64,000 bases of DNA from an uncultured Anaerolineae bacterium. Lineage in GTDB: Bacteria; Chloroflexota; Anaerolineae; CG2-30-64-16. Shown here piece after piece: positions 6,856 to 29,744 of this stretch (within the stretch, counting starts at the first letter, position 1; every line of letters starts with the position of its first letter). A model generated the notes under the pieces. It searched no databases, was not told where the DNA came from, and was given only the letters and a program-made list of their open reading frames with translations. The translations under genes were made by a program, and so were the position numbers. The stretch is taken from assembly GCA_937124585.1 (NCBI GenBank), contig CAKZKT010000116.1, positions 1 through 64,000 on the forward strand, written 5' to 3'.

Positions 6856-6857
6856 CT

Positions 6858-7058
6858 TCACAAATCCAGCACCCAGATCGCGCCGTCCTCGCAGCTCGCC
6901 TCGCACGAGTAGCAGCCGATGCAGTCGCCGGGATCGCCCTGGAAAAAGGCATAGCGCCGGCCATCCTCATCCGCGATCGCAAATGCCTGGTTGGGGCAGA
7001 CCCGGATGCATTCGCCGCACGCGCGGCACTTCTCGATGTCAACGATGACGACGAACAT
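6858..7058 (-). CDS. Two-cluster [4Fe-4S] ferredoxin
   Basis: A 66-residue protein with two cysteine sets, CRACGECIRVCP and CIGCYSCEASCE, each suited to a [4Fe-4S] cluster. No signal peptide is visible, so it should be a cytoplasmic electron carrier. Its start overlaps the stop of the DsrE-like gene by one base, and it is followed 2 bases later by dsrN. It may carry electrons to or from the dsr machinery. The partner is not identifiable from sequence. Confidence 0.88.
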   Translation of the reverse strand: MFVVIVDIEKCRACGECIRVCPNQAFAIADEDGRRYAFFQGDPGDCIGCYSCEASCEDGAIWVLDL

Positions 7059-7432: not shown

Positions 7433-9049
7433 CTACATCTCCTCGTTCCACGTGATATACGGCCCCGGCAGGTCGGCCATCGCGTTGACCATCAGCTCCA
7501 CCAGGCCGCCGTACCAGATGCCGTGCTGCTCCCAGAGGTCGTAGTAGTTGATGGCCTCGCGCAGGGTGCCCTTGCAGTTGGAGCACGCCGCGATCACGTA
7601 CTTGCGGATGCCGGGGTCCAGGACGTCGCCGAACGCGTCGAGGATCTGCTTCACCTTCATGCGCGCCGAGACCGCGTTGCGCCACTGCGAGAAGTTCAGG
7701 GTGTCCATGATGGCGAAGCCGCTGCCGCCGCCGCAGCAGTAGTTGTGCACGCCGTGGGGCGCCATCTCGCGCAACGGCTGGCTGCAAACCGCCCTGACGA
7801 TCTCGCGCTGGGGCTGGACGATGCCCATCAGCCGGACGACGTTGCACGAGTCGTGCAGGGTGACCGGGAAATCGTTGCGGGATGGATCGAAGCGGATCGC
7901 GCCGCTGCGGACGATGTCCCACAGCAGCGGCAGGCAGCTCTCGCGCGGCCTCTCGGACACGCTGTGGTCGCCGGGCAGCACGCGGTCGGCGATCACACAG
8001 AGCGCCTTGTGCGCGTGGCCGCACTCGCCGACCACGATCTTCTTGACGCCCAGCCGTCGCGCGACCTCCACGTGTTGCAGCGCAATGCGCGCCAGCTCCA
8101 CGTCGTCGAACCAAACCGCGTAGTTGACCACATCGTAACCTAGCAGGTCGCTGCTCAGCGTCCAGTTGATGCCGGCGGCGTCGAACAGGATGGCGAACGC
8201 GGCCGGGTTCTCGGGCCACGAAATGAACTCGCCTGCGTTGTGGATCAGCAGGATGTCGGCGCCCTTTTTGTCCACCGGGATGGTGATCTTGCGGCCGGTC
8301 TTCTCCTCGATGATCTCCTCCAGGAACTCCACCGAGTTGCGGAACGCGGCCGGGTTCATGCCGGTGGAAGAGCCCGCCTGGAGGTGCTGCCGCGTGCCCT
8401 TGCGCAGCAGCTCGGTGGGCGCGATGCCCAGCTCCTGGCTGAACAGCTTGCGGATCTCGCGGGCGATCAGGGCGTTGTCAATGCCGGCCGGGCACACCTG
8501 CGCGCAGCGCCGGCAGATGTTGCAGCGGTACGACAGCTCCAGCAGCCGCCACACCGTCTTGAAGTTGACCTCGACGTCCGCGCCGATCAGCGGGCCGATC
8601 AGCTTGCCGGCCGGCGTGAAGTAGCGCTGATAGATGCGCCGCAGGATCTCCGAGCGGTAGGTGGGCCGGTAGATCTCCTGCCGGCCGCTGCCCAGGTAGA
8701 CGTGGCACGCCTCGGAGCAGGTCTGGCAGCGCATGCAGTAGTCCAGCGACAGGCGGAAGAGCTTGGCGAAGGTCCAGTTGGTCTCGGGGTCCAGCAGCTT
8801 CTCCAGGCCGGTCAGGAAGCCGCGCACCAGCCGCTCGCGCTCCTCCGGCGTCTTCGGCATGGGGATGTCGAAGTCGGAGAAGCCGTCCAGCGAGAGGTCG
8901 TAATTCTCCAGCCACCTGGGCCGGGGCGGCGTCAGCTCCGGCACGTCGCTCAGCGCGGGGAGCGGCATCAACTCATCGGCGCTAAGCGGGTTCAATGGTT
9001 CATCGGTCAGCCGGGCGATGTCCCGGAAGCGGATCGGTTGGCGGCTCAT
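7433..9049 (-). CDS. dsrK: DsrK-type heterodisulfide-reductase-like subunit (second copy)
   Basis: A 538-residue cytoplasmic FeS protein of the HdrD/DsrK family. Two [4Fe-4S] motifs (CMRCQTCSEACHV and CNICRRCAQVCP) precede a CCG domain. That domain holds the catalytic-cluster signature CCGGGSGFA, with further Cys-rich sites (HDSC, CSNCKG). DsrK is thought to reduce the DsrC trisulfide with electrons from DsrM. ATG 9049 overlaps the dsrM stop (ATGA) and has a good AAGGAG site. It differs clearly in sequence from the other DsrK at 19818-21266, so it is not a recent duplicate. Confidence 0.88.
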   Translation of the reverse strand: MSRQPIRFRDIARLTDEPLNPLSADELMPLPALSDVPELTPPRPRWLENYDLSLDGFSDFDIPMPKTPEERERLVRGFLTGLEKLLDPETNWTFAKLFRLSLDYCMRCQTCSEACHVYLGSGRQEIYRPTYRSEILRRIYQRYFTPAGKLIGPLIGADVEVNFKTVWRLLELSYRCNICRRCAQVCPAGIDNALIAREIRKLFSQELGIAPTELLRKGTRQHLQAGSSTGMNPAAFRNSVEFLEEIIEEKTGRKITIPVDKKGADILLIHNAGEFISWPENPAAFAILFDAAGINWTLSSDLLGYDVVNYAVWFDDVELARIALQHVEVARRLGVKKIVVGECGHAHKALCVIADRVLPGDHSVSERPRESCLPLLWDIVRSGAIRFDPSRNDFPVTLHDSCNVVRLMGIVQPQREIVRAVCSQPLREMAPHGVHNYCCGGGSGFAIMDTLNFSQWRNAVSARMKVKQILDAFGDVLDPGIRKYVIAACSNCKGTLREAINYYDLWEQHGIWYGGLVELMVNAMADLPGPYITWNEEM

Positions 9050-9969
9050 TTTTTCTCTCCTTCCGGGCTGATCATCTGGGCCTCTTCCAGCCACGTTTTG
9101 CCGGCCGCAATGTGCGGCGCCTGCCACTTCACCCGGTAGCCGAGCTGCCGGATCACCTGCCGATCCGCGGCCGAGCCTTTCGTCTTGAACGCGTCGTCCC
9201 ACAGCCCTTGATGGTAGAGGAAATACTTGATGACGTAGTGCAGCAGCTTGGAGAACGGCATGTAGACGACGAAAGCCCAGAAGAGCAGGAACGTCGCCAG
9301 GACGGCCCCGGACACGGCCGTGGGCTGGAAGGTCAGCGCGGCGCTCATATAGGCCCGATGCCCCGCCAGCGCCGGGTCGCCCGCCCACGAGATCAGGCCG
9401 GACACGAAGATGGCGGCCAGGAACGCCAGGTTGAAGTAGTCAATGGGCGCGGTGTAACGCGCCAGGTCGGGCGTGGTCGCGCGGCGGACGATCAACCCGG
9501 CGGCCCCGACCAGGCCCACGGCGCAGGCGACCACGAGCAGCGGCCCCGCGACCGCGGCCAGCAGGGCGCTGCGGGTCAGGCTTTGGACGATCAGCAGCAG
9601 CGCCCAGAGGACGAACAGGTAGATGCCCCAATGCAGCAGCGTGGAAAAGGCCCAGATGCCGTAGCGGTTGTGGCCGCGCACCTTCTTCATGGTCACGATT
9701 TCGGTGCCGATCTCGATGGCCTCGGGCGCCAGGAATTCGACGACCTCGGCCCAGAACGAGCGGCGCTCATGCTTCTTGGGCCAATCCACGTCCTCCATGT
9801 ACGAGCCGCCGTACTCGCGCCGGTCGCGCGCCTCATGCGGGATGGGGTAGACCTCCCAGCGCAGGCCCAGCGGCATGGAAGAGATCTTGACGACGCGGTA
9901 TACGGCGACCGCGAAGAAGATCACGACCGAGGCCCAGGCAAAGATGATGGCAAACCAGTGTAAGGCCAT
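9046..9969 (-). CDS. dsrM: DsrM-type membrane cytochrome b subunit (second copy)
   Basis: A 307-residue integral membrane protein of the nitrate reductase gamma/DsrM family, expected to bind heme b and oxidise menaquinol for DsrK. About six hydrophobic segments are visible. Histidines such as those in STLLHWGIYLF and SKLLHYVIKYF are likely heme ligands. A basic cytoplasmic loop with MKKVRGHNRYGIW separates the first helix from the core. Overlap with dsrK shows a DsrMK module. It is separate from the shorter DsrM (240 residues) at 21278-22000. Confidence 0.85.
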   Translation of the reverse strand: MALHWFAIIFAWASVVIFFAVAVYRVVKISSMPLGLRWEVYPIPHEARDRREYGGSYMEDVDWPKKHERRSFWAEVVEFLAPEAIEIGTEIVTMKKVRGHNRYGIWAFSTLLHWGIYLFVLWALLLIVQSLTRSALLAAVAGPLLVVACAVGLVGAAGLIVRRATTPDLARYTAPIDYFNLAFLAAIFVSGLISWAGDPALAGHRAYMSAALTFQPTAVSGAVLATFLLFWAFVVYMPFSKLLHYVIKYFLYHQGLWDDAFKTKGSAADRQVIRQLGYRVKWQAPHIAAGKTWLEEAQMISPEGEKK

Positions 9970-11202: not shown

Positions 11203-11586
11203 TTAGCGCTGGCCTTGCTTGGGAATATACCGCACACCGGGAATGTGCTCAAAGTGCTCATCTTGTGTCCAAAGCGTCGCATCGTGAACGCGAGCGGTTG
11301 CCAGAATAATGCTATCGGCCATCGGGAGCCGGTACTCTAAAGAGACTTTGACGGCAGTCAACGCAAGCGGGACATCGAACTCGCGAACGCGTCCACGCAG
11401 CATCACGGCAACAGCTTGCAACGCCTCACTTTCGCTGCGTTGCTGCAAGACGCGTTTGAACACTTCGTACACGCTGATCACAGGTACGAGCAATTCAGAC
11501 GTGGCCTCAACCGCCGGCGCAAAGAAATCCGCATTCGGCCCATCGGCGAAATATTCAAGCCAGCCGGATGAGTCAACCACATTCAT
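11203..11586 (-). CDS. PIN-domain ribonuclease toxin (VapC-like)
   Basis: A 127-residue PIN-domain protein. Acidic active-site residues are visible: the N-terminal MNVVDSSGW Asp, a central Glu (EVFKR), the MADSIILATA Asp and the late LWTQDEHF Asp. PIN toxins cleave RNA when the partner antitoxin is lost. The start overlaps the antitoxin stop by four bases (ATGA), the standard layout of type II modules. It sits inside the dsr locus. Confidence 0.88.
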   Translation of the reverse strand: MNVVDSSGWLEYFADGPNADFFAPAVEATSELLVPVISVYEVFKRVLQQRSESEALQAVAVMLRGRVREFDVPLALTAVKVSLEYRLPMADSIILATARVHDATLWTQDEHFEHIPGVRYIPKQGQR

Positions 11587-11789
11587 AGCCGATCAGGCTC
11601 TCGGTCAATGTCAGTATCAATCCCTTTGAGAAAGCCGCGCATTTCTTGGGTTGGCCGGATAAGGATCAACTCAATTCGGTCTTCGTACGGGATCACCTGT
11701 ACTTTTTGGCCAGGACGGATCCCGAGAGCCTCACGCACCGCGCGTGGGATCACGATCTGGAACTTTGGAGAAATCGAGACTGCTTCCAT
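11583..11789 (-). CDS. AbrB/MazE-type antitoxin (VapB-like)
   Basis: A 68-residue DNA-binding protein with the SpoVT-AbrB swapped-hairpin signature (ISPKFQIVIPRAVREAL..PGQKVQVI). The C-terminal half (EMRGFLKGIDTDIDREPDRL) would wrap the PIN toxin. It is the first gene of the pair and likely autorepresses it. The upstream DNA (11790-11930) is partly AT-richer and holds a TGCATGCA palindrome, a possible operator. Confidence 0.88.
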   Translation of the reverse strand: MEAVSISPKFQIVIPRAVREALGIRPGQKVQVIPYEDRIELILIRPTQEMRGFLKGIDTDIDREPDRL

Positions 11790-11930: not shown

Positions 11931-13574
11931 CTATTTGTACTTCACCGCGATCTTCTGCGCCGCGTCGAATGCCTGCGCGAACGCGGCCCCTGCCATCGCC
12001 CGGTTCACCGGCAGCATCGCCTTCGCCAGCGCCAGCGACGCCTCGGCCGGGGCCAGGGGGTCGCCACGGACACGGGCGGCCAGAGCCATGGACAGCGCGG
12101 CGTCGAAATCTTCCTGTGCCCCCGTTTTGGCCGCGATGTGGCGTAGCACTTCCGCCTTCTCTGCCTCGGTGGGCAGCTTGAGCAACGATTCGCGCGCCGC
12201 GGCGACGTCGTTGAGTGTCGCCGCGATGCGATCCGTCCGCAAGACGTAGCCGGCGTTCGGCATAGCTTTTCCGGCAGCAACCGCAGCCTCGGCCCACGGC
12301 CGCAGGGCAGGGTCGGTCACTTTGGCCAGCGTCGAGGCCGCCTGGCCGGGGTCAACCCGGGGCCACTCGGCGGCGATGGCAGCCAGGTCCACCTGGCCGT
12401 AGACGGTGCGGTTTTTCTCGGCCAACGCCTGGGCCTGGGCCATGATCTCGGCCGCGCGCGCCGGGTCCACCGCGGCCCATTCGGCCGCGATCAGGCGCAG
12501 CCCCCAGGCCCGCGACCGCACGGCTTCCAGCTGGGCGGCCAGCAGCGCGGCCTTCTCCTGCGTCGCGGGCGAGCCGATGCCGGCCTCCCACGCAGCCCAG
12601 GCCTGGCCCCACAGCGCGTCCGCGTATTCCTCGGCCTCGGCCGCGGCCTCTAGCGCGGCGTTTAGCGCGACCTCGCCCTGGGCCGGGTCGAGCTGCGACC
12701 ACGCGGCGCCTACCCGCGCTAGCATCCATGCGCGCGCCAGCGCCCGGTCGGCGGTGTCGGCCACGCGGCCGGAGGTGTCCAGTGTGGTCTGCACCGCCTG
12801 CTCCTCGGCGGTGGGGATCGCCACGACCGCGGCGGGCGTGCGGAACAGCGGCAGCGCGAACAACACGAACACCAGCCCCGCGACCGCAACAGTGCCCCAA
12901 CCCGGCCGTCCCTCGCGCCACCACGCCCGCGCCGCGGGCCGGAACTTCAATGTGTTGCGCAGCCCCCACGCCAGCGAGCCGAGCACGACCAACGTCACCA
13001 GGACGGCGAAGAGCAGCACCCGGTTGCGTTTGCCCGCATCAATCGCCTGGTTGAACGCCGTGAGCACCTTGTTGCCCTGGAAGCGCAGCGTCTGCGCCTG
13101 CGACGTGAATGCGTCCAGGCTGGTCACCGGTGCCTGCCGCAGCGCGTCGTAGCCCTGGCGGAACGCGGCCAGCCGCTTCTCCTGCGCCGCGACCGCGCCG
13201 CTGCCGGCGAACGTCCCGGCCCGCTCGGTGGCGGTCAACAGCTGCTCGGTGTAGAGCAGTTCCTCGCGATAGGCTTTCACCGCCGGGCAGGTTGCCTCCT
13301 CCGGCGGCCGCGCCTGCCACTCGGCCAGCTTGCCGGGCGCCGGATCGGCCGCGACGTGACAGGAGGCGCAGTAGTTGCCGGGCTGCAAGTCTTCCGCAGA
13401 GGCAGCGCCGCAAAAAGAAAGCAGCAGTACAAAACAAACGATGATGACAAATACCGGAGTCGAGGCTGCGCGCACCCCCCTCTTGGGGTTGGCCGGCAAC
13501 TTACATCGCCCGGAGAGACCGATCCCGGGTTGTTTGACTTGCATCCAAACGCTCGGTAAACGATGGATCATCAC
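11931..13574 (-). CDS. Membrane-anchored monoheme c protein with helical-repeat domain, function unknown
   Basis: About 547 residues. A long N-terminal signal region is followed by one c-type heme motif (NYCASCHVA), a helical linker, two membrane segments (about residues 187-207 and 230-247) and then a roughly 290-residue Ala-rich helical domain. That domain repeats the pattern AAEWA..DPARA, resembling a TPR/HEAT-like solenoid. I know no family with this order. GTG 13574 has GGAGG 6 bases upstream and overlaps the stop of the 53-residue gene; ATG 13571 is the alternative. Its place at the end of the MopB/FeS/NrfD run suggests a subunit or assembly/scaffold factor of that complex (inference). 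Confidence 0.75.
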   Translation of the reverse strand: MMIHRLPSVWMQVKQPGIGLSGRCKLPANPKRGVRAASTPVFVIIVCFVLLLSFCGAASAEDLQPGNYCASCHVAADPAPGKLAEWQARPPEEATCPAVKAYREELLYTEQLLTATERAGTFAGSGAVAAQEKRLAAFRQGYDALRQAPVTSLDAFTSQAQTLRFQGNKVLTAFNQAIDAGKRNRVLLFAVLVTLVVLGSLAWGLRNTLKFRPAARAWWREGRPGWGTVAVAGLVFVLFALPLFRTPAAVVAIPTAEEQAVQTTLDTSGRVADTADRALARAWMLARVGAAWSQLDPAQGEVALNAALEAAAEAEEYADALWGQAWAAWEAGIGSPATQEKAALLAAQLEAVRSRAWGLRLIAAEWAAVDPARAAEIMAQAQALAEKNRTVYGQVDLAAIAAEWPRVDPGQAASTLAKVTDPALRPWAEAAVAAGKAMPNAGYVLRTDRIAATLNDVAAARESLLKLPTEAEKAEVLRHIAAKTGAQEDFDAALSMALAARVRGDPLAPAEASLALAKAMLPVNRAMAGAAFAQAFDAAQKIAVKYK

Positions 13575-13732
13575 TCGCTGCCTCCGCCCATAGGGTGGCC
13601 GTCGGCCTCGGGCGGCTTCGGAGCCGAAGCGATCCAGTGCACCATCCGCACATAAGCGATCAGCACCGGAATGGCGATCAGACCGACGATGATCCCGCCG
13701 ACGCCGGCGGTGTCAATGATCCAATGAGCCAT
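13571..13732 (-). CDS. 53-residue single-pass membrane peptide
   Basis: Reads MAHWIIDTAGVGG, then a hydrophobic helix (about residues 12-33) and a polar Pro/Gly tail. GGAG lies 9 bases upstream of the ATG. It is tightly packed between the NrfD-type gene (21 bases) and the heme/solenoid gene (overlapping), so it is probably translated. Small one-helix subunits are common in quinone-linked membrane complexes such as alternative complex III. That role is inferred from position only. Confidence 0.7.
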   Translation of the reverse strand: MAHWIIDTAGVGGIIVGLIAIPVLIAYVRMVHWIASAPKPPEADGHPMGGGSE

Positions 13733-13752
13733 GGGAGGGTACTCCGTGTAAT

Positions 13753-15144
13753 CTACATCTGCGGCGCGGCGAGCAGCTCCGCAGCTTTGCGCTTGACTGC
13801 GGCGATGTGTTCGCCCTCCTCCACCTCCCAGACCGAGATAGCCGGGAAGATCTTGAAGAAGAGCAGGAACAGCAGCGCGAAAAGCGCCAGGGAAGCGGCC
13901 GTGATCGCGATCTCGGTGAAGGTGGGCGCGTAGATGGCCCGCTCGTAGCCCAGCGAGGGCCGCGTCAGGGTCGGCGCGATGATGGTGAAGCGCTCGATCC
14001 ACATGCCGACCGCGATGGCCGCCGACGCGATCACCGTGCCGACCGGGGTCCGTCCCCTGCGCCGGATCAGGATGGCGAACGGCACGACGAAGTTCAGGAA
14101 CACCATGGCGTAGAACCACGGCGCGTATTCGCCGCTCAGCTTGGCCTGCAGCACCTCCTGCTCGTGCACTAGCGTGCCGTAGCCCGTGGTCAGGTACTCG
14201 GCCAGGGTGAAATAGCCCCAGAACGCACTCATCACCAGCAGCAGGATGCCCAGGTAGTCGTATTGTTTCGGCCCGATCCACGGCTCCAGGTGCCAGGCCT
14301 TACGGATCAGCGTCATGAACAGGAACAGCGTGGCGATGCCGGAGAAGATTGCGCCGACGACGAAATAGGGTCCCAGGATGGTGCTATGCCACATGGGCTG
14401 CATGTTCATGCCGAAGATCCACGAGACCACCGTGTGCACCGAGACCGCGATGGGGATGATCAGGATCGCCATGATGCCGATGCCCCGCTCCAGCCGGCGC
14501 ACCTGCTCCGCGCTGCCGTGCCAGCCCAGGGCCAGGATGCGGTAGAAGTGATAGCGCCAGGTGTGTTGGAACGTTTCAACGTTCCAACGTTTCAACGTTC
14601 CAACGGCTGAAAGGGGCAGTTCTGGTTTCATCCGATCCCGCAGCCGCGCCAGGTCGGGGATCATGGGCAGGTAGAGGTAGAGCGTGCTGCTCAGCAGGTA
14701 GAGGCTGATGCAGGTCACGTCCCACAACAGAGGCGACTGGAAGCGGCCGAAGAAGATGACGTTCAACACCCGATCCAGGCGGCCCAGGTCAATCAAGATC
14801 TGTATGGCGCCCAGGATCAGCGCGAAGAAGGTGATCGCCTCAGCGATGCGGGTGATGGGCCGGCGCCACTCGGCCTGAGTCACGCGCAGGATGGCCGAGA
14901 TCAGCGTGCCCGCGTGGCTGATGCCGATGAAGAACACGAAGTTGGTGATGTAGATGCCCCAGTAGATGGGCCGGCTCAGCCCGGTGACGCCCAGGCCCAG
15001 CACCCACTGCCGCACCAGCGTGATCGCGCCCACCAAAACCACCGCCGACAGCACGCCGATCACCAACCAAAACTGCACAGTGGTGTGACGGAGAGGGTTG
15101 AGCACAGCCCTCTCCAGCTCTGTTTCTCGATGAACATTTTCCAT
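13753..15144 (-). CDS. NrfD/DsrP/ActC-type integral membrane quinone-interacting subunit
   Basis: A 463-residue protein with about ten membrane helices, the size of ActC/QrcD/DsrP rather than the shorter PsrC type. NrfD-family subunits exchange electrons between the quinone pool and an FeS partner. Starts considered: ATG 15144 has GGAG 8 bases upstream and is preferred over GTG 15153. A 13-residue insert (VGTLKRWNVETFQ) in a loop is encoded by five octamers. It follows the four-cluster FeS gene and precedes the 53-residue peptide. It takes the DsrP position of a DsrMKJOP-like order, but a molybdopterin-family subunit is also present upstream, making the complex unusual. Confidence 0.88.
   Translation of the reverse strand: MENVHRETELERAVLNPLRHTTVQFWLVIGVLSAVVLVGAITLVRQWVLGLGVTGLSRPIYWGIYITNFVFFIGISHAGTLISAILRVTQAEWRRPITRIAEAITFFALILGAIQILIDLGRLDRVLNVIFFGRFQSPLLWDVTCISLYLLSSTLYLYLPMIPDLARLRDRMKPELPLSAVGTLKRWNVETFQHTWRYHFYRILALGWHGSAEQVRRLERGIGIMAILIIPIAVSVHTVVSWIFGMNMQPMWHSTILGPYFVVGAIFSGIATLFLFMTLIRKAWHLEPWIGPKQYDYLGILLLVMSAFWGYFTLAEYLTTGYGTLVHEQEVLQAKLSGEYAPWFYAMVFLNFVVPFAILIRRRGRTPVGTVIASAAIAVGMWIERFTIIAPTLTRPSLGYERAIYAPTFTEIAITAASLALFALLFLLFFKIFPAISVWEVEEGEHIAAVKRKAAELLAAPQM
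14565..14604. repeat. Octamer array (GTTGRAAC type) inside the NrfD gene
   Basis: Five exact-phase 8-bp units: GTTGGAAC GTTTCAAC GTTCCAAC GTTTCAAC GTTCCAAC. They encode the loop RWNVETFQH and keep the frame. Confidence 0.8.
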
Positions 15145-15172
15145 CAATGACACTCCGCTCCCCGCTGCTCCC

Positions 15173-15228
15173 CTATTTCCTTGTTTCTTTGTCTACTTGT
15201 TTCCTTGTTTCCCTGTTTCCTTATTTCC
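15173..15228. repeat. Octamer array (TTGTTTCC type), nrfD/FeS junction
   Basis: Seven 8-bp pyrimidine-rich units (CTATTTCC, TTGTTTCT, TTGTCTAC, TTGTTTCC twice, CTGTTTCC, TTATTTCC). They fill the space between the FeS-gene stop and the NrfD start. The same unit recurs at 19755-19813. Confidence 0.8.
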
Positions 15229-15229
15229 C

Positions 15230-15916
15230 TCACCCCTGCTTCAAATAATACACCTTCGGCTCCGTCCCCATCTCCTCCAGCAGCCGGAAGGCGCGGGGGC
15301 TGCGGGACAGCTGGTAGACCAGGCTGTTCGGGTCGTCCAGGTCACCGAAGTAGCGGGCGTGACCGGTGCAGGTTTGCACGCAGGCGGGCTGATAGTCGGC
15401 CGCGTTGAAGGGCCGGCCTTCGGCCGCCGCCTTCTCTTTCGCGTGGCGCAAGCGCTGGATGCAGAAGGTGCACTTCTCGATGACGCCCTTGGGCCGCGGC
15501 GCGACCTCCGGATCGGGGTTCAGGTGCTCGCGCATTCCGGCCGGCCACTCCGGCGCATACCAATTGAAATAGCGCACCTGATAGGGGCACGCCACCGCGC
15601 ACATGCGACAGCCGATACAACGCTGGTAGTCCACCACGACGATGCCGTCCTCGTTCTTGTACGTGGCCTTCACCGGGCAGACGTAGGTGCACGGCGGCTT
15701 GTCGCACTGCTGGCAGGGCCGCGGCACCAACAGCACCTCTACTTTGGGGTACTCGCCGTGGACAAAGGCCAGCACCTCGTTCCATAAAATCGCCCGGTCG
15801 CGGCCGGTTTGATCGGGCCCGGCCGGCGGCGTGTTGTTCTCCATGCGACACGCCGCAGTGCAGCTCTGACAGGCGAAGCATTTGTCCAGATCTATGACCA
15901 TTCCCCAACGGGGCAT
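15230..15916 (-). CDS. Four-cluster [4Fe-4S] protein (DsrO/PsrB/QrcC type)
   Basis: A 228-residue protein with the four cysteine sets of CISM beta subunits: CFACQSCTAACR, CQQCDKPPCTYVCP, CIGCRMCAVACPYQ, and CTFC..CVQTC. It would form an electron wire between the molybdopterin-family subunit and the NrfD protein. ATG 15916 is chosen because GGAGG stands 5 bases upstream; the in-frame ATG at 15949 lies in repeat-like sequence. No Tat signal is seen, so if the mature complex is periplasmic this subunit would be carried across with the Tat-signalled partner. Confidence 0.9.
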   Translation of the reverse strand: MPRWGMVIDLDKCFACQSCTAACRMENNTPPAGPDQTGRDRAILWNEVLAFVHGEYPKVEVLLVPRPCQQCDKPPCTYVCPVKATYKNEDGIVVVDYQRCIGCRMCAVACPYQVRYFNWYAPEWPAGMREHLNPDPEVAPRPKGVIEKCTFCIQRLRHAKEKAAAEGRPFNAADYQPACVQTCTGHARYFGDLDDPNSLVYQLSRSPRAFRLLEEMGTEPKVYYLKQG

Positions 15917-16014
15917 GTGGGCCTCCGGGATGTCTATTGCGTACCGCATACTACCATACTGCGTATCATGGCGATCAGCGGATTTATGCAGTATGCAGTA
16001 CGAAGCTGTCTCCC

Positions 16015-18345
16015 CTACACCTTGTACACTTTCACGCGCGTCACGCCCTTGCTGGCGAGGAGCTGGTTGACGTTGGCGCCGATGACGGCTGGAGCCTGGC
16101 TGCCGCGGCCCCAGCGGATGGTGGTGCGGTGGCCCATGCCGGGCGGCATGTACACGGCGTTGGGCCATAGACCCTCATACAGACGGACAACGGCTTGTAC
16201 CCGGCCTTGAGGCGATTCCACCCAGACACGGTCGCCACTCTGCACGCCCAATGCCTTGGCCGCCCGCGGGTTCATCTCCACCCAGGCGCGCCACTTCATG
16301 TTGGCCTGTAGCCCGTAGCTCTCCTGCAGCGTGGGCACGATCCCCGGCCACGGCCGCGGGTGGGTGATCAGGCCCTGGGTGACCAGCACGTACGGGTATT
16401 CGGTCGCTGCGCCGGCCTCCGCGGGCACCTGGAAGTGGGGGAGGCACGCCAGGTCGGCCTTGGCCGGATCGCCCTGCCCGGCCACCATCGCATAGAGCTC
16501 GCGCGCGAAGAAGTCGAATCGGCCGTCTTTGGGCGCTTGCAACCGATCGCGGCCCACCACCTGCGGCCAGGCCCGGCTGCCCGGCTCTGCGTGGAAATAG
16601 ACCATCTCGGACCAGACGCCGTTCTCCCGGAACTTCTCCCAGTCGGTGTCAATGGCCGACAGGCGATGCTCGAAGAGCGTCTTGTAATCGGGGAAGGGCA
16701 ACGCCTGCGCCACGGGATCCCCCAACGCAGCGGCCAGCGCCAGCAGCACATCGCCCGGGTTGCGGGTGTCGTGGACCGGCTCGACCACCGGCTGGCGCAG
16801 CGACACGCCCGCATAGCCGGTGCCCTCCACGAAATCGTCCCCCCAAACCTCCAGGAAGGTGCTGGCCGGCAGGATCAGGTCGGCGTGCGCGCTGGTTTCG
16901 TCCGGCACCGAGGCGAAGCTGACCACGAACGGCACCTTCAAGAGCGCCTCGGCCATCTTGCCGTTGGCCGGATGCTCGTAGACCGGGTTGGTGTTGAGCA
17001 GGAAGAGCACGTTGACCGGATAGGGGGTGTCTGCGGCCAGGCGTTCGGCCAGCAACTCGGGCGCCAACGGCTCGAACGGGTTGTCGCTGATGGCGTCGAG
17101 CCGCGGTTGGGTCAGGGATGGGACGGTCGGCACGGCCACGAGAGGCCACGGCGTCAGCTCGGGGAAGCGCTGCACCAGCACGCCGCCGGCCACATCAATG
17201 GAGCCCACCAGCGCATTGAGCGCGTGCACGGCCAGGGCGTCGTAGAGCGGCAGGCCGTCCGGCTCCACGGGCATCACGGCGATGGCCGGCCGGTTGGTGG
17301 CGAACTCGCCGGCCAGACGGGCAATGTCGGCGGTGGGCACGCCGGTGATGAACTCGACGCGCTCCAGCGTGTATTTCTCCAACACCAGCCGTTTGAAGCC
17401 CATGTGCGACGCGCCCACCGCGTCGGTGAAGTCCTCGAACCCAAAGGTGAAATCCCGGACGAAGTCGGCGTCGTACAGGCCGCTGTTGATGATCACGTTG
17501 GCCATGCCCAGAGCCAGGGCGCCGTATGTGCCGGGCCGGATCGGCACCCACTCGTCGGCCTTGACGCCGGTGAGGGAGAGCCGTGGATGCACGGCCACGA
17601 ATTTGCCCCGGCGGGGTCGGCCGCGGCGCATGAAGGCCAGCGCGGCCAGCGCGCCGATCACGTGCCGGCTGGACTCGAGGTAGTTGCCGCCGAAGGCCAT
17701 GACGTAATTCGCGTTGTTCACGTCGTAGACGGGATAGCCGTTGATCCCCTGCGACAGAAACATGGCCATGCGGACAGCATGTTCGCCTGCGCTCTCCAGG
17801 AAGATGGTGTTCGGCGAGCCGTAGGCGCTCATGAAGCGGTTGATGACGCTGCGGAGCGAGCCGCGCGTGTCGCCATGCAGGAACGCGACCGTGTGCATCT
17901 GGCCGTCTGCGGCCAGCTCAGCCAGTTTGCCCGCCACCAGCGCCAGGGCCTCGTCCCAGGAGACCTCACGCCAGGTCGCCGAAGGGTCTGTCTTGCTGCC
18001 GGTGCGCACGCGCGGGCGCTGGATGCGTTCCGGGCTGTACAGCATCTCCAGCGACGCCTGGCCGCGCAGGCAGCACACGCCCTGGTTGACCGGGTGGATG
18101 GCGCTGCCTTCCACTTTGACCGCGCGGCCGTTCACCACGCGCACTTCCAGGCCACAGCCGGAGGGACACAGCGCGCAGGTCGTGCGCACCCGCTTCTCCT
18201 CCAGCGCCGACGCTGCGGCCGCGGGCATCCCGGCCCAGGGCTGGCCGGCATGATCCAGGAGTGACTGCGTGCCCGCGGCCGCAGCCACGGCTGCCGCCGT
18301 CACACCGGTAAGCTTGATGAAGTTCCGTCGAGAAAGATGGCTCAT
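16015..18345 (-). CDS. Molybdopterin oxidoreductase-family subunit (MopB), Tat-exported
   Basis: 776 residues. An N-terminal twin-arginine signal (SRRNFIKLTG) is followed by a [4Fe-4S] motif (CALCPSGC..VCCLRGQ), the bis-MGD binding core and a C-terminal MopB dinucleotide domain (ARAAKALGVQSGDRVWV). In the segment where many family members have the Mo-ligating Cys/SeCys (between YGSPN and YVMAFGGN) no cysteine occurs. Either another ligand is used or, as in QrcB and ActB, the cofactor may be absent. It resembles polysulfide/thiosulfate reductase-like and Qrc-like subunits, but the substrate cannot be assigned. It is followed by the FeS and NrfD genes and preceded by two cytochromes and a Rieske protein. 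Confidence 0.85.
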   Translation of the reverse strand: MSHLSRRNFIKLTGVTAAAVAAAAGTQSLLDHAGQPWAGMPAAAASALEEKRVRTTCALCPSGCGLEVRVVNGRAVKVEGSAIHPVNQGVCCLRGQASLEMLYSPERIQRPRVRTGSKTDPSATWREVSWDEALALVAGKLAELAADGQMHTVAFLHGDTRGSLRSVINRFMSAYGSPNTIFLESAGEHAVRMAMFLSQGINGYPVYDVNNANYVMAFGGNYLESSRHVIGALAALAFMRRGRPRRGKFVAVHPRLSLTGVKADEWVPIRPGTYGALALGMANVIINSGLYDADFVRDFTFGFEDFTDAVGASHMGFKRLVLEKYTLERVEFITGVPTADIARLAGEFATNRPAIAVMPVEPDGLPLYDALAVHALNALVGSIDVAGGVLVQRFPELTPWPLVAVPTVPSLTQPRLDAISDNPFEPLAPELLAERLAADTPYPVNVLFLLNTNPVYEHPANGKMAEALLKVPFVVSFASVPDETSAHADLILPASTFLEVWGDDFVEGTGYAGVSLRQPVVEPVHDTRNPGDVLLALAAALGDPVAQALPFPDYKTLFEHRLSAIDTDWEKFRENGVWSEMVYFHAEPGSRAWPQVVGRDRLQAPKDGRFDFFARELYAMVAGQGDPAKADLACLPHFQVPAEAGAATEYPYVLVTQGLITHPRPWPGIVPTLQESYGLQANMKWRAWVEMNPRAAKALGVQSGDRVWVESPQGRVQAVVRLYEGLWPNAVYMPPGMGHRTTIRWGRGSQAPAVIGANVNQLLASKGVTRVKVYKV

Positions 18346-18404
18346 CGCATCCGTTCCCCGTGCCGGATTGCCGGGCCCTCACAAACGCGCCCGACACAAC
18401 CCCG

Positions 18405-18773
18405 TCAGTTTCCTTCGAAAGAGCGCAGCCAGGCTCGCACGCGCTCGACCTGAACCGGCGCTGCTGTGGGGGGCACGGCCGGTGTCACCGTGCGCGGTAT
18501 CGCCACGAAATCAGCCGAGTTCACCTTCAGCCGCACGCCCAACAGGGCCAACGCATCGGCCAACGCCGGTACGGTGCCCGGCCGGCCGCTGCCCACCCAG
18601 GCCTGGCCGCGCGGGGTGCGCAGGCCGCCGCCCGACGGGCTGATGTGACACGACGCGCACGGCTCGCCGGTCTGCGTTGAATACTCCGGCAGCGCGCCGG
18701 TGGGCTGGCTGGCAGATAACAGCAGAATGATAGATATAATGACAAGCAAGCCGACCAACACACCGCGTCGCAT
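18405..18773 (-). CDS. Small monoheme c-type cytochrome
   Basis: A 122-residue exported protein: hydrophobic signal/anchor (about residues 4-22), one heme motif EPCASCHISPSGGG, then a Pro/Thr-rich C-terminal part. ATG 18773 is preferred because AGGAG stands 8 bases upstream; ATG 18779 and GTG 18803 are also in frame. The distal ligand is not obvious. It lies between the Rieske and MopB genes and is a plausible electron carrier for that module. Confidence 0.8.
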   Translation of the reverse strand: MRRGVLVGLLVIISIILLLSASQPTGALPEYSTQTGEPCASCHISPSGGGLRTPRGQAWVGSGRPGTVPALADALALLGVRLKVNSADFVAIPRTVTPAVPPTAAPVQVERVRAWLRSFEGN

Positions 18774-18799
18774 AATCATCGCTCCTGAATTCCTTACGC

Positions 18800-19255
18800 T
18801 CACGCCTCTTCCCCCACCACCACCATGTCACCATCCACCCGCACCGTGAATTGCTCCAACGGCAACGGCGGCGGGCCGGCCAGCACCTCCCCGAACTGAT
18901 CGAAGCGGCCGTCGTGACAGGGACAATAGAACTCCTTGGCCCCCTCCTGCCACTGCACCAGGCAGCCCAAATGCGTGCAGACCAGCGAGAAACAACGGAT
19001 GCTTTCCGGCGTGCGCACCACCAGCGCGGGCGTAGCGCCATAGGTGATCGGCCGCGTGCCACCCACGGGCAGCTCGGCCAGGGGGAAGGTCACCGGTTTC
19101 GTTTCGGCCGTTGATGTGCTCGGGAACAACAGCGATTGCACCGCAGTGCCGGCCCACGCCGCAGCCACCGCTGCCATCCCGCCCAGGATGAGCCTGCGGC
19201 GGGAGATAAACGGAGATGGCCCAGAAGGCAAAGATTTAGCCGCTTGTTCAGACAT
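18800..19255 (-). CDS. Rieske [2Fe-2S] protein with Tat-type signal anchor
   Basis: 151 residues. The twin-arginine segment SRRRLILGG and one hydrophobic helix are followed by a Rieske fold. The cluster ligands are in CTHLGC and CPCHDG, the full two-Cys, two-His set, with GRFDQFGEVLAGPPPLPL after it. Rieske proteins of this kind work in bc1/b6f complexes. No cytochrome b gene is nearby, so here it seems to belong to the MopB/FeS/NrfD module. ATG 19255 has GGAG 8 bases upstream. The neighbouring cytochrome genes point to a periplasmic electron chain. Confidence 0.92.
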   Translation of the reverse strand: MSEQAAKSLPSGPSPFISRRRLILGGMAAVAAAWAGTAVQSLLFPSTSTAETKPVTFPLAELPVGGTRPITYGATPALVVRTPESIRCFSLVCTHLGCLVQWQEGAKEFYCPCHDGRFDQFGEVLAGPPPLPLEQFTVRVDGDMVVVGEEA

Positions 19256-19276
19256 CACTAGAACTCCGAAGAAGGG

Positions 19277-19410
19277 AGCGAGTCGGCGAGTCAGCGAGTC
19301 AGCGAATCGGCAAATCAGCGAGTCAGCGAATCAACGAATCAATGAATCAACGAATCTTCGCCATTCGCTCATTCGCCCATTCGCCCATTCGCCCATTCGC
19401 TCATTCGCCA
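19277..19410. repeat. Two-armed octamer satellite (AGCGAATC / CATTCGCC)
   Basis: About sixteen 8-bp units. AGCGAATC, GGCGAGTC and ACGAATCA types run to about 19360, then the polarity flips to CATTCGCC units. This is the same inverted design as the satellite inside dsrN (5912-6078). Its right end supplies the last two codons and stop of the upstream diheme cytochrome gene. Confidence 0.85.
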
Positions 19411-19706
19411 GTTTCCACGATCGGATCAACCCCCACATACCCATGGCAGTTGTTGCAGCTCTTCACCGGCTCATGGCAATACAGGCAGTCGGTTTTGGCC
19501 AGATCGCCGCGGTTCACCATGTCCATGTGATGGGTCTGCCACCAATCCAGCGGGCTGTGATACTCCGGCGCCGGATAGCGCGCGTCAATCCGCACCGCCA
19601 GCGGCCCGGTCCCATCCTTCACCGGCTTCTCAGCCCAGGACGGATAGAAACCAACCACCAGCAGGACAATCACCACGACAGCGATGATGAGAAATACTTT
19701 GCGCAT
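19401..19706 (-). CDS. Membrane-anchored diheme c-type cytochrome in DsrJ-like position
   Basis: A 101-residue protein: one N-terminal hydrophobic anchor (residues 4-20) and two heme c motifs (TDCLYCHEP and KSCNNCHGY), plus extra histidines (THHMDM) that could be ligands. DsrJ is a triheme cytochrome with a signal anchor. This one has two CxxCH motifs only, so it is a DsrJ analogue by position rather than by clear homology. It follows dsrK and precedes the Rieske gene. Its C-terminus (VETGE) ends inside the octamer satellite. Confidence 0.82.
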   Translation of the reverse strand: MRKVFLIIAVVVIVLLVVGFYPSWAEKPVKDGTGPLAVRIDARYPAPEYHSPLDWWQTHHMDMVNRGDLAKTDCLYCHEPVKSCNNCHGYVGVDPIVETGE

Positions 19707-19716
19707 GAGTCGTTCT

Positions 19717-19813
19717 CGTGATACGTGATGCGTGATACGTGATGCGTGAAATCCGTGTTTCCCTGAGTTCCCCCAATTCCCTTGTTTCCCTGTTTCCTTG
19801 TTTCCCTGCTCCC
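19717..19813. repeat. Heptamer plus octamer arrays between dsrK and the diheme cytochrome
   Basis: Five heptamers at 19717-19751 (CGTGATA and CGTGATG alternating, last CGTGAAA). These are followed by TTGTTTCC/CTGTTTCC octamers, clearest at 19782-19805. Confidence 0.8.
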
Positions 19814-19817: not shown

Positions 19818-21266
19818 CTACAACTTCAACGCATTCCCCAGCAACTGAGCCACCCCGCCCACCTCCACCGGCACGCCCCAGTAATGCATGGACTCGGGCA
19901 GCTGGGCCTTGCAAATGGCGCAGACGGTGGCCAGGAAGTTCGCGCCGGTGTGCTTGACTGCCATCGCGCGCGGCTTGCCGCCGGCCATGCGGATGGGCAT
20001 GATCTCATCGGTGAGCAGGCCGTTGCCCGCGCCGCAGCAGAACGTCTTCTCGCGGATCGTATCGGCCGGCATCTCCACGAAGCGGTTGCAGCAGGCGCGG
20101 ATGATCTCGCGCGGCTCCTCGACGAGTTGGCCGGCACGGGCTGCGTTGCAGGGATCGTGGTAGGTGACGAGGTACTGATCGTTGGCGTTCTTGTCAATCT
20201 TGCCGTTGAGCGCGCCCCGACGCAGCATGTCCACCGTGAACTGGCTGATATGGTACGGGTAGGGCGGGTCGAACTCGTCCATCGGGCCCGAGAGCGAAGG
20301 CGTGAAGATGCCGGCGCGCCAGGCATGGCCGCACTCGCCCCAGATGATCGTCTTCACCCCCAGCATCCGCGCCGCGGTCAGGATGCGGTTATTGACCTTC
20401 TTCATGTTGGCGAAATTCAAGAAAAGGCCGAAGTTGCCGCCCTCGTTGCAATAGGTGCTGGTGGTCCAGCTGATCCCCAGGACATGGAACAGCTTGGCGT
20501 ACCCGATCATCGTTTCAGTGTTGGCGAAGTTGTCGGCCGACGGCGGCACCAGGAGCACCTCCGCGCCCTGCATGTCCACCGGGAACTTGATCGGCACGCC
20601 GGTTTGCTCCAGGACATCCTCTTCCAGGAACTCGCAGTTGTCCTTCCAAGCGGCGGGCGGGATGCCCAGGTTGTTGCCCGTATCGTAAACCTTGGCCACC
20701 ACCTCGGTGACGTACTTGGTGCTAACGCCGATCTCGGCCATGATCTCGCGCGCGGCGATGGTGATCTCGGCCGTGTCAATGCCGTAGGGGCAGAAGACCG
20801 AACAGCGGCGACACTCGGAGCACTGGTAGAAATAGGTGTACCAGAGCGCCAGCATCTCCTCGTCGAAGTCGGCGGCGTTGGCAGCCTGCGGCATCCGGCG
20901 GCCCAGGGGCGTGTAATAGCGGCGATAGACCGCGCGCAGCAGCTCGGCGCGGGCCACGGGCATGTTGCGCGGGTCGCCGGTGCCCAGGTAGAACTGGCAC
21001 TTGTCGGCGCACGCGCCGCAACGCACGCAGATGTCCAGGAAAACCCGCAGCGCCTTGTTGCGCTCCAGCAACTCACCCAGCTTCGCCACACCTCGCGCCT
21101 GCCAGTCGGGCAGCCGTTCGGTCGGCAAATCAATGGCGCGCGTGTCCTTCGGTTTGCTCGGCCAGCATTTCACGCCGACGGAGGCATCCTCGCGGATGTC
21201 CGGCGGTCGCAGGATGCCGTTGATGGGCGGGTCTTTGATGATCGGAGCTTCGTCGAACTTGGCCAT
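19818..21266 (-). CDS. dsrK: DsrK-type heterodisulfide-reductase-like subunit (first copy)
   Basis: 482 residues. Two N-terminal [4Fe-4S] motifs (CVRCGACADKCQFYLG and CSECRRCSVFCPYGID) precede a CCG domain with FCCGAGNG and CAICKAQLP. It should take electrons from DsrM and reduce the DsrC trisulfide on the cytoplasmic face. ATG 21266 is taken as the start; an in-frame ATG at 21293 overlapping dsrM is possible. It lies directly after dsrM in the dsrA-B-D-C-M-K order, so it is the canonical copy. Confidence 0.92.
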   Translation of the reverse strand: MAKFDEAPIIKDPPINGILRPPDIREDASVGVKCWPSKPKDTRAIDLPTERLPDWQARGVAKLGELLERNKALRVFLDICVRCGACADKCQFYLGTGDPRNMPVARAELLRAVYRRYYTPLGRRMPQAANAADFDEEMLALWYTYFYQCSECRRCSVFCPYGIDTAEITIAAREIMAEIGVSTKYVTEVVAKVYDTGNNLGIPPAAWKDNCEFLEEDVLEQTGVPIKFPVDMQGAEVLLVPPSADNFANTETMIGYAKLFHVLGISWTTSTYCNEGGNFGLFLNFANMKKVNNRILTAARMLGVKTIIWGECGHAWRAGIFTPSLSGPMDEFDPPYPYHISQFTVDMLRRGALNGKIDKNANDQYLVTYHDPCNAARAGQLVEEPREIIRACCNRFVEMPADTIREKTFCCGAGNGLLTDEIMPIRMAGGKPRAMAVKHTGANFLATVCAICKAQLPESMHYWGVPVEVGGVAQLLGNALKL

Positions 21267-21277
21267 GTGCCTGGTCC

Positions 21278-22000
21278 CTACCGCTTCTTGCATTTCTGCA
21301 CATCAAAGGGTTGATTGCGTGTCGGGCTGAAGAAGATGCCGCCGGCATGGAGCAGCTTGCTGAACGGGAAGTAGAGCATCAACCCGATCACGAGCAGGAA
21401 ATGGACGAGAAAAAGCGGATGCGCTGGAGGCGCCACCGGTCGCAAAGTCAACAGGCCCAGGGTGAACGCCTTGACATCCACCAGGTTCACGTGGAGCCAG
21501 TACTTCGTCAAGATGCCGGTGGCCGCAATCAGGCCCAGCAGGGCCAGGGCGAAATAGTCGGGCACGCCGGAGACATACAGCGCTCTGGGCAACGCCAGCC
21601 TGCGCCAAAAGAGGAACAGGATGGCCACCCCGAACACATAGCCCGCCCAAAGCGCCACCGACGACATCGCCACCGAAATCCCCGGCACCGGATAGGTGAA
21701 GTACCGCAGATGGCGGATCAGGATCACCCACAGCGCCACGTGAAACACCCAGGCGCCCGCCCACAACGCCTTGTCGGCCTTAAAGAGGGACGGGAAGAAC
21801 AGGACATCCCCTGCGACACGTGCGGCTGCGCCTGCGTCGGTCGTCGGCGCAGGGGTGAGGGCCGCCGGATATGGCATCGGCGTGCGCAGATAGCCGACCA
21901 AACGCCAGAGCAGGCCCAGCACAAACGTGACGCCGGCAAAATAGCTCAGGCCAATCAGCAAAGTCGCAAACAAAGTCCAAAGAGCAGCGGGTGTAGACAC
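21278..22000 (-). CDS. dsrM: DsrM membrane cytochrome b subunit (first copy)
   Basis: 240 residues with about five to six membrane helices and the NarI/DsrM pattern. Candidate heme b histidines lie in FHVALWVILIRHLRYF and HPLFLVHFLLV, and near the C-terminus in SKLLHAGGI. It is expected to oxidise menaquinol and pass electrons to DsrK. The gene is 11 bases upstream of dsrK and about 80 bases after dsrC; that gap is filled with heptamers. It is much shorter than the second DsrM. Confidence 0.88.
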   Translation of the reverse strand: MSTPAALWTLFATLLIGLSYFAGVTFVLGLLWRLVGYLRTPMPYPAALTPAPTTDAGAAARVAGDVLFFPSLFKADKALWAGAWVFHVALWVILIRHLRYFTYPVPGISVAMSSVALWAGYVFGVAILFLFWRRLALPRALYVSGVPDYFALALLGLIAATGILTKYWLHVNLVDVKAFTLGLLTLRPVAPPAHPLFLVHFLLVIGLMLYFPFSKLLHAGGIFFSPTRNQPFDVQKCKKR

Positions 22001-22099: not shown

Positions 22100-22417
22100 T
22101 CACACGCAGCCGGTGGGCTTGGGCAGACCGGCGATTTTGCAAGCGCCCTTGGCCGGGCCACTGGGGAACAGCTCGTAAATCTCTTTGAGCGGAAAGCCGG
22201 TGTCCTTGCAGAGTTTGCGGATCATCGGCGCGATACCGAACTGCTGGTAGTAATCCCGCAGATAGTTCACAACTTTCCAGTGCGCTTCGGTCAGCTCGGG
22301 CACATCCTCGCTCTTGGCCAGAGCCGCTGCAACCTCCGGGCTCCACTTATCCGGTTCCTGGATGAACCCATCCTCGTCAACTTCGATTTCCAGTCCGTCA
22401 ATTTTGATGAACGGCAT
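22100..22417 (-). CDS. dsrC: DsrC sulfur-carrier protein
   Basis: 105 residues, the size of true DsrC. The C-terminal arm reads ACKIAGLPKPTGCV, with Cys93 and the penultimate Cys104 separated by ten residues. Both cysteines needed for the trisulfide product of DsrAB are therefore present, unlike TusE or RspA. The start ATG 22417 follows AAGGAGGG. DsrC is the substrate of DsrAB and then of DsrK, and the gene order dsrD-dsrC-dsrM-dsrK agrees. Confidence 0.97.
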   Translation of the reverse strand: MPFIKIDGLEIEVDEDGFIQEPDKWSPEVAAALAKSEDVPELTEAHWKVVNYLRDYYQQFGIAPMIRKLCKDTGFPLKEIYELFPSGPAKGACKIAGLPKPTGCV

Positions 22418-22433: not shown

Positions 22434-22637
22434 CTACTCAGCCGTCCCCAATTTGATGAAAGTAGCACCGCCGAACGATTCGAACTCCAGCGTGCCATCG
22501 TTAACCATCTCGGTGATCGCTTTCTTGACGACGCGATGCTCGAGCCCCAGCCCGTCGGCAATGTCCCGCGCGCCGATCTTCTTCCGGCTGTTCTTTACGT
22601 ACTCGATGATCTTGGCCCTCAGTTCATCATCTGCCAT
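22434..22637 (-). CDS. dsrD: DsrD winged-helix activator of DsrAB
   Basis: A 67-residue winged-helix protein. The core RVVKKAITEMVNDGTLEFES matches the DsrD pattern VKK..T.LVND..LEY. DsrD has been shown to stimulate sulfite reduction by DsrAB and is used as a marker for the reductive direction. ATG 22637 follows GAGGAGG. It lies between dsrB and dsrC as in many sulfate and sulfite reducers. Slightly shorter than the usual 75 to 80 residues. Confidence 0.9.
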   Translation of the reverse strand: MADDELRAKIIEYVKNSRKKIGARDIADGLGLEHRVVKKAITEMVNDGTLEFESFGGATFIKLGTAE

Positions 22638-22775: not shown

Positions 22776-23837
22776 TCACCACTTGAACGTCGGCGTGCTC
22801 CGATACGTCTCCGGCGCCAACGTGAAGTCGTCAATCAATTGCGGCTTGAACTCGATGCCGGCCAGGGTGAAGAAGCGCTCCCAGCCGATGCGATCAATCC
22901 ACTCGCCCATGCGCTCGTGCTTGCGCGCATGTTTGGCCCATGTCTCGATGATGTTCTTGACGGCCGCCGTGGTCTCGGGCCAGCGCGGCGGGTTGTTGGG
23001 CAGGTACGGGATCACCAGGCGGGAGAACTTCGGCGGCGTGCGCGCGCTGGAGACCTTGCCGCCCACCCAGATCGAGACGCCGTCGCCCACCGGATCGGCC
23101 AGGGGCATGCCCGGGCACATGGTGTAGCAGTTGCCGCAGTACATGCATTTCTCTTCGTTGACGATCAGCGACTTGGTCTTCGGATCGGGCCGGATGGCGC
23201 CCGTGGGACACGCCGCGATGACGTTCGGGATCTCGCATTTGGCGCGCACGACGTCGTGGTTGATCACCGGCGGCTTGCGATGGATGCCCAGGATCGCCAC
23301 GTCGGAGCAGTGCACCGCGCCGCACATGTTCAGGCAGCAGGCCAGGCTGACACGGCAGTACGCCGGCAGCTTCCAGTCCACGAAGTATTCGTACAGCTCG
23401 TCCATCACCGCCTTCACGATGCCCGAGGCATCGGTAGCGGGCGTGTGGCAGTGGATCCAGCCCTGCGTGTGGACAGGGTTCGTGATGGCATGGCCGGTGC
23501 CGCCGACCGGATAGCCGTGCTCCTGCAGATACGCGATCAGCGGCTCCACCTTGGCCTCGTCGGAGACCAGAAACTCGACGTTGTGGCGGCTGGTGAAGCG
23601 GAGATGACCGTCGCAGAATTGATCGGCGATGTCGCACACCTCCCGGATCCAGTCGGTGCTGACCAGCCGCGGGGAGCCCACGCGCACGGTCCACAGCCGA
23701 TCCCCCGATTCGGCCACATGGACCAGCAGGCCGGGCTTGATCCGTTCGTGATACTTCCACTGCCCGTAGTTCTTCTGAATGACCGGAGGAAGCATATCCC
23801 GGAAATATGGGGGGCCGAAATCAGTCCGAGTAGCCAT
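22776..23837 (-). CDS. dsrB: Dissimilatory sulfite reductase beta subunit
   Basis: 353 residues. Siroheme/[4Fe-4S] domain with [19 protein letters not shown], and an inserted ferredoxin domain with CPTGAIRPD and [16 protein letters not shown]. With DsrA it reduces sulfite by up to six electrons and loads sulfur on DsrC. ATG 23837 has GGAGG 8 bases upstream and overlaps the dsrA stop by one base (TGATG); GTG 23840 is the alternative. Length and motifs are complete. Confidence 0.97.
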
Positions 23838-29550: not shown

Positions 29551-29597
29551 AGGAACCTCCCGAACGGTCTACAACCATCCTGAAAAGTTCACCGTCT

Positions 29598-29633: not shown

Positions 29634-29744
29634 GACACGCCCGAAATCAATTGGCTGCTCGGCCCGATTATAGCATGGGGCGGAAAAAGAGGACAATCTG
29701 GCTCTATCCCGCCCCTGCGCGCAGGACAGAGGGCGCCTGCGCCC

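Follow-up and report, generated by a model that had tools for sequence, protein, structure and literature searches.

The dsr Locus and the Genes Downstream of dsrK

The window, i.e., the whole stretch of 64,000 nucleotides that was analysed, is part of contig C116 from a 4.83 Mb genome of an uncultured Anaerolineae bacterium. By name, the relatives are MAGs of Anaerolineae and other Chloroflexota, and a scan of genome contigs returned only Chloroflexota as close relatives. The dsr operon on the minus strand starts with a Cons_hypoth698 gene, which encodes a putative exporter, and continues with dsrA, dsrB, dsrD, dsrC, dsrM, and dsrK (Table 1). DsrM and DsrK are both present and encoded by adjacent genes, DsrM scoring below the curated cut-off. 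DsrD, which is taken as a marker of reductive Dsr operation, is encoded beside dsrAB and is also present in the complete loci of relatives.

Downstream of dsrK, on the same strand, lie eight genes encoding, in this order, a two-heme cytochrome c, a Rieske protein, a monoheme cytochrome c, a molybdopterin-family protein (MopB), an FeS protein, an NrfD-family protein, a peptide of 53 residues, and a heme/solenoid protein. The spacing between neighbours ranges from a 4-base overlap to gaps of up to 145 bases. A sequence-only reading of this DNA had listed the same eight genes in the same order, and the analysis bears this out. The range that it gave, 13571–19706, takes in the first seven genes and leaves the heme/solenoid gene outside.

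Table 1. Genes of the dsr operon and of the module that follows dsrK, in window coordinates.
Feature	Position	Strand	Basis or remarks
dsrA	23837–25021	−	TIGR02064, 574.6 bits, over cut-off
dsrB	22776–23840	−	TIGR02066, 532 bits, over cut-off
dsrD	22434–22637	−	Pfam PF08679, 31.9 bits, over cut-off
dsrC	22100–22417	−	TIGR03342, 125 bits, over cut-off
dsrM, cytochrome b membrane subunit	21278–22000	−	NF038037, 150 bits, below cut-off of 300; PF02665 over cut-off
dsrK	19818–21293	−	NF045796, 520 bits (cut-off 400)
DsrJ-like diheme cytochrome c (DsrJ′)	19401–19706	−	NF038038, E 7.7e-5; N-terminal anchor, two CxxCH
Rieske [2Fe-2S] protein	18800–19255	−	PF00355, 44.6 bits, over cut-off; twin-Arg N-terminal anchor
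Monoheme cytochrome c (GEPCASCHISPSGGGLRTPRG)	18405–18779	−	Sequence and homologues
MopB	16015–18345	−	PF00384, PF04879, PF01568, TAT_signal
QrcC/DsrO-like FeS protein	15230–15916	−	228 aa, start at 15916; 16 Cys for four clusters
NrfD-family quinone-reactive membrane subunit	13753–15144	−	PF03916, 114.6 bits
Single-TM peptide, 53 aa	13571–13732	−	Kept in most dsr loci; follows NrfD in dsr-free relatives
Heme (CxxCH) protein, two TM helices, C-terminal alpha-solenoid	11931–13571	−	Orthologue alignment, AlphaFold2

Several other features surround the operon. After the module, a second dsrM–dsrK-like pair is found at 7433–9969 (DsrK2, 358 bits, below the cut-off), and DsrK-like paralogues in a downstream position are common to many related loci and to G019, a genome of a different Chloroflexota class. 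The region 7058–7432 encodes a lone DsrE-family protein (PF02635), next to which lie genes for a small ferredoxin and a CobB/DsrN-like protein; in other settings, DsrEFH proteins are associated with oxidative Dsr. Degenerate short repeats of the type GAATGGGCGAATGAGC or GGAAACAAGGAAACAGG occupy the intergenic gaps 19260–19400, 15160–15230, and 19720–19800, and the CobB/DsrN-like (dsrN/cobB) reading frame at 5242–6906 contains a similar one, SASRRISESASRRISES, that is read through. Between the module and a radical-SAM gene, a pair of small genes (11203–11789) resembles, by eye, a PIN toxin and an AbrB-type antitoxin. Upstream of dsr, the region 28243–31253 encodes a nickel-dependent malate racemase (LarAH5 family, over the cut-off) and a UxaA/galactarate-dehydratase-like protein. 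Since the family of the latter also takes in sulfolactate lyases, a sulfonate is a possible source of sulfite.

Conservation of the Module and Its Linkage to dsr

The gene order of the module recurs in some 20 further contigs, either complete or truncated where the contig ends, which rules out chance neighbours or an assembly artefact. With the window proteins as tblastn queries, the same order was recovered from G028 and from named contigs of Chloroflexota MAGs; it is also found in genomes whose MopB is 50–53% identical (family f118). The order holds across families, and incomplete examples stop at contig edges.

The linkage to dsr, noted in the sequence-only reading, held up among 396 Anaerolineae genomes. 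DsrA with at least 70% identity is encoded by 15 of them, all of which have MopB of the dsr type, and a 16th genome with such a MopB (G550) carries dsrK, dsrJ′, and the Rieske gene on the same contig. The Fisher p value for dsrA and dsr-type MopB is 3e-26, uncorrected for kinship across five families. DsrP over the cut-off was found in none of the 17 dsr genomes searched. G525, with a divergent DsrA (C155:9994–11127, 42% identity) that is possibly of the archaeal-like type, has no dsr-type module; an archaeal-like DsrA has been reported for Caldilineae J123 (PMC10504309).

G616 alone seems to break this pattern, since the module is distant from dsr in its assembly. The dsr stretch ends there at a 100-N gap right after dsrJ′, and the module starts right after another 100-N gap. 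Because the breaks fall at such gaps near the missing Rieske gene, the split is most likely a scaffolding artefact, so that G616 is dismissed as a case of the module away from dsr. None of the loci read has a Rieske/MopB set that lies apart from dsr and lacks cytochrome b, and the module is strictly dsr-associated in the genomes searched.

The MopB, FeS, and NrfD Proteins

MopB matches the QrcB model NF041783 with 329.6 bits, below the cut-off of 440. In an alignment with ArrA and PsrA, all four cysteines of the [4Fe-4S] cluster are kept, and the Mo-ligand cysteine is gone in every dsr-type member: its column holds no cysteine in any of them and is not conserved. Because this ligand is lost, MopB is probably a structural, non-catalytic subunit similar to QrcB or ActB1, and a catalytic molybdoenzyme (polysulfide, thiosulfate, or arsenate reductase) is ruled out. 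The Tat export proposed for MopB is backed by a signal match. Its place among QrcB/ActB1-like subunits accounts for the fold of MopB but not for the module. A tree of MopB places the dsr-type sequences in a single clade (19 of 19 rows).

The FeS protein falls below the cut-offs of both the QrcC model (NF041782, 269 bits vs. 400) and the DsrO model (NF045797, 186 bits vs. 200). Its 16-cysteine pattern is kept in all dsr-type members, which form one group in the FeS tree beside dsr-free relatives, apart from DsrO and ACIII (SH-aLRT 91).

Among solved structures, NrfD is closest to ActC (6lod_C, 211 bits); it reaches 110 bits with the DsrP model (cut-off 350) and 44 bits with the QrcD model (cut-off 570). 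The proteins called "DsrO-like" and "DsrP-like" in the sequence-only reading are this FeS protein and NrfD, and neither reaches the cut-off of the DsrO or DsrP model. At the positions of ActC His139, Ser164, and Asp169, dsr-type NrfD proteins have Asp, Ser, and Asp, respectively, and at Asp253 a hydrophobic residue (Ile, Leu, Val, or Met). The residues of the N-side half-channel are nearly all kept, as is the Glu394/Arg395 pair. The roles of these residues are taken from PMC8076601 and PMC13059093. The quinone-site Asp and Ser of NrfD lie 18 residues apart, the same spacing as between D120 and S138 of QrcD (PMC13059093), a match made by spacing. NrfD is ActC-like in sequence, with quinone-site residues as in DsrP and, apparently, in QrcD too. 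In three dsr loci (L066, L067, and L068), NrfD is of another subtype, which suggests exchange of this subunit.

The Cytochromes, the Rieske Protein, and the Heme/Solenoid Protein

The diheme cytochrome c aligns with three canonical Chloroflexota DsrJ proteins in hhalign (probability 93.9, E 1.5e-7, 55 columns). Of the three CxxCH motifs of canonical DsrJ it has two, the third being absent, and the first cysteine is missing as well; judged by these sequence features, it is a divergent, shortened DsrJ. A DsrJ family search across the genomes gave no match in any genome, with the controls likewise blank.

The Rieske protein has the boxes CTHLGC and CPCHDGRF, and its PDB matches are b6f/bc1 Rieske proteins. 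Its second box is without the Ser and Tyr that the canonical form, CPCHGSxY, contains and that raise the redox potential in bc1-type proteins. Throughout the dsr-type Rieske proteins, both boxes and both disulfide cysteines are kept, Ser is missing, and Tyr usually is. This loss is not dsr-specific, since the other Chloroflexota Rieske proteins examined share it. The dsr Rieske proteins were not recovered as one clade in the Rieske tree, in which a single clade is not rejected (p-AU 0.31).

The monoheme cytochrome c is the counterpart of the N-terminal half of a two-heme cytochrome c in dsr-free relatives; a longer relative in L113 carries PF13442. The heme/solenoid protein, whose gene overlaps that of the small peptide by a few bases, has neither a Pfam nor an NCBIfam match. 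In its aligned orthologues, YCxxCH and one further cysteine are invariant. The AlphaFold2 model is all-alpha and of moderate confidence (mean pLDDT 71.7), and a fold search with it returned generic helical repeats only (best E 0.015).

Relatives Outside dsr Operons and a Cytochrome b Form of the Operon

About 25 Anaerolineae genomes encode a MopB that is approximately 38–48% identical, in loci without dsr or DsrJ. In a common dsr-free form, the two-heme cytochrome c is followed by MopB, FeS, NrfD, a ferredoxin, and the small peptide; neither DsrJ nor a Rieske protein lacking cytochrome b was found in these relatives. Where a Rieske gene adjoins MopB–FeS–NrfD outside dsr operons (L057, L082, and L092), it has its own cytochrome b each time. 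In L082 (1069–10514), the neighbours of the Rieske–cytochrome b genes are two tandem FeS/NrfD sets, accompanied by MopB-like genes, and a 17-heme cytochrome. Only three parts of the module are dsr-specific, namely the two-heme DsrJ, the heme/solenoid protein, and a Rieske protein that lacks cytochrome b. The monoheme cytochrome c, MopB, FeS, NrfD, and the small peptide are not peculiar to dsr: they have a dsr-free relative that is common across Anaerolineae.

G019 encodes dsrABDCMK, DsrJ′, and a Rieske protein that are 44–81% identical to those of the window. The DsrK of this genome clusters with that of the module (100/100) and not with that of the Chloroflexota JOP operons. In place of MopB–FeS–NrfD, a cytochrome b6 (PF00033) and a subunit IV (PF00032, PEWY) follow the Rieske gene inside the dsr operon (L054:9681–10778); then come a CxxCH membrane protein, a separate solenoid protein, and a second dsrMK-like pair. 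The solenoid protein has a lipobox-like N-terminus, suggesting a periplasmic location. Taken from this one genome, the arrangement implies that DsrMKJ′, the Rieske protein, and the heme/solenoid protein are constant and the quinone core is variable.

Comparison with Known Complexes

As in DsrMKJOP, the genes for DsrM, DsrK, and a homologue of DsrJ follow dsrC in that order, and an NrfC-like FeS protein and an NrfD protein are present. In contrast to DsrMKJOP, its DsrJ has two heme motifs rather than three, QrcC-like and ActC-like proteins of another clade replace DsrO and DsrP, and a Rieske protein, a monoheme cytochrome c, MopB, the small peptide, and the heme/solenoid protein are added. QrcABCD shares with the module a MopB without Mo ligand, a QrcC-like four-cluster protein, NrfD, and the quinone-site Asp/Ser. 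However, the module has no QrcA and no multiheme gene in the operon, it does have Rieske and DsrJ, its subunits all score below the QrcB, QrcC, and QrcD cut-offs, and its MopB keeps the [4Fe-4S] motif, while QrcB has been reported to be without a redox cofactor (PMC13059093). The likeness to ACIII (ActABCDEF) lies in the ActC-related NrfD, the monoheme cytochrome c, and the separate B1 and B2 halves, as in Chloroflexota L061. Unlike ACIII, the module has a Rieske protein and replaces ActC His139 and Asp253; tblastn with Chloroflexota queries for ActA (the pentaheme subunit), ActD, and ActE found none of them in the dsr loci. Finally, the Rieske protein is of bc1/b6f kind in its boxes and disulfide cysteines and is followed by cytochrome b6 and subunit IV in G019, but the Anaerolineae dsr loci gave no match to cytochrome b.

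The nearest precedent is in cable bacteria, where dsrTMKJ are encoded together and the OP homologues and a tetraheme cytochrome elsewhere (PMC13047784): there, as in the module, DsrJ stays with DsrMK while OP is displaced. No Rieske protein or MopB is reported for that operon, in which it differs from the module. No Dsr-complex DsrK was found among PDB sequences. The mixture of DsrMKJOP, Qrc, and ACIII features with a dsr-linked Rieske protein, as described from the sequence alone, is supported by gene content and conservation. The literature searched, which covered few subscription journals, contains no description of a Rieske protein with dsrMK or DsrMKJOP, or with Dsr of Chloroflexota or Anaerolineae. 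All parts of the module are of known kinds; their combination is new within that literature and suggests a respiratory complex not previously described.

Proposed Function and Alternatives

Rieske/cytochrome b complexes are quinol oxidases. As MopB–FeS–NrfD occupies the place that cytochrome b has in G019, menaquinol oxidation is favoured, and the core probably does the same job. The preferred reading, on which we would put about even confidence, is a dsr-specific respiratory module that replaces DsrJOP beside DsrMK and whose core oxidises menaquinol on the P-side. MopB as a non-catalytic scaffold, the four-cluster FeS protein, and NrfD would form the P-side quinone-reactive core; the Rieske protein, two-heme DsrJ, monoheme cytochrome c, and membrane heme/solenoid protein would be electron carriers on the periplasmic side. 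Menaquinol would be oxidised with release of protons at the P-side, and electrons would pass from the FeS clusters of the core to the Rieske centre and hemes and on to DsrMK and/or periplasmic cytochromes, the DsrMK route running by way of the DsrM b hemes to cytoplasmic DsrK and DsrC. The sequences show which genes are present and in what order, their linkage to dsr, the loss of the Mo ligand, the retention of FeS, heme, and Rieske ligands, and the residues of the quinone site; the single physical complex, the direction of electron flow, and the energy coupling are what we infer from them. With a little less assurance, falling just short of even, the genes would specify a new complex, DsrMKJ′–Rieske–cytochrome c–MopB–FeS–NrfD, with an exchangeable quinone core: DsrOP, cytochrome b6/subunit IV, or an ACIII/Qrc-like core. 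No precedent is known to us for a Rieske centre that has an NrfD-type quinol oxidase as its partner in place of cytochrome b.

Some observations sit uneasily with menaquinol oxidation by this module. The G019 arrangement is known from one genome, the dsr Rieske proteins do not form one clade in their tree, and NrfD is of another subtype in three loci. The Asp and the hydrophobic residue at ActC His139 and Asp253 fit quinone reduction too. A Rieske centre is usually a high-potential carrier and, as such, an awkward donor for sulfite reduction.

The resemblance of the Asp/Ser site to that of QrcD makes the opposite direction a serious rival, albeit an unlikely one: in a menaquinone reductase similar to Qrc, electrons from hydrogenase or formate dehydrogenase would enter by periplasmic c-type cytochromes and flow through hemes, MopB, and FeS to NrfD, which would reduce menaquinone, and DsrMK would use the menaquinol. 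QrcB and QrcC are the best NCBIfam matches of MopB and FeS, and the Mo ligand is lost as in QrcB (PMC13059093). Nevertheless, hexaheme QrcA is absent, NrfD matches ActC far better than QrcD, and the Rieske protein and the G019 cytochrome b in the place of the core point to quinol oxidation.

Of similarly low probability is an oxidative or reversible Dsr, in which DsrMK would feed electrons from sulfur oxidation to menaquinone and the module would serve as the quinol:cytochrome c step toward a terminal oxidase. A Rieske centre would suit a high-potential acceptor, a DsrE-like protein is encoded nearby, and a heme-copper oxidase exceeds the cut-off in 13 of the 17 dsr genomes, including that of the window, but not in the other four. 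AprA, as expected of a sulfate reducer, exceeds it in none of the 17 (none in G000; G660 and G497 come near 400 bits, below it). The direction is still viable because chimeric Dsr systems are reported in Chloroflexi, with DsrMK and DsrN beside oxidative types in one assembly (PMC10504309). On the other hand, separate MopB and NrfD homologues beside the oxidase on contig C119 are probably an ACIII-like set for that job, and sulfite reduction is likelier than sulfur oxidation because DsrD is present and DsrL is reported absent from Chloroflexota (PMC10591310).

An independent, co-regulated quinol:cytochrome c oxidoreductase of an Anaerolineae ACIII-like family, placed in the dsr operon without contact to DsrMK, is improbable. 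In its favour, about 25 Anaerolineae genomes have the core (monoheme c, MopB, FeS, NrfD, and small peptide) away from dsr, and at three loci outside dsr operons MopB–FeS–NrfD adjoins Rieske–cytochrome b. Against it, the dsr-type form includes a homologue of DsrJ and a Rieske protein that lacks cytochrome b, it occurred in the sample only with dsr genes, and canonical DsrOP are missing.

Significance

The module bears on how DsrMK connects to the quinone pool and on the role of DsrJOP. With OP replaced in two ways and a form of J retained, what J does and what the quinone core does become directly comparable. If the complex is real, it would join a Rieske protein to an NrfD-type core and give sulfite-respiring Anaerolineae a mode of energy conservation of their own.
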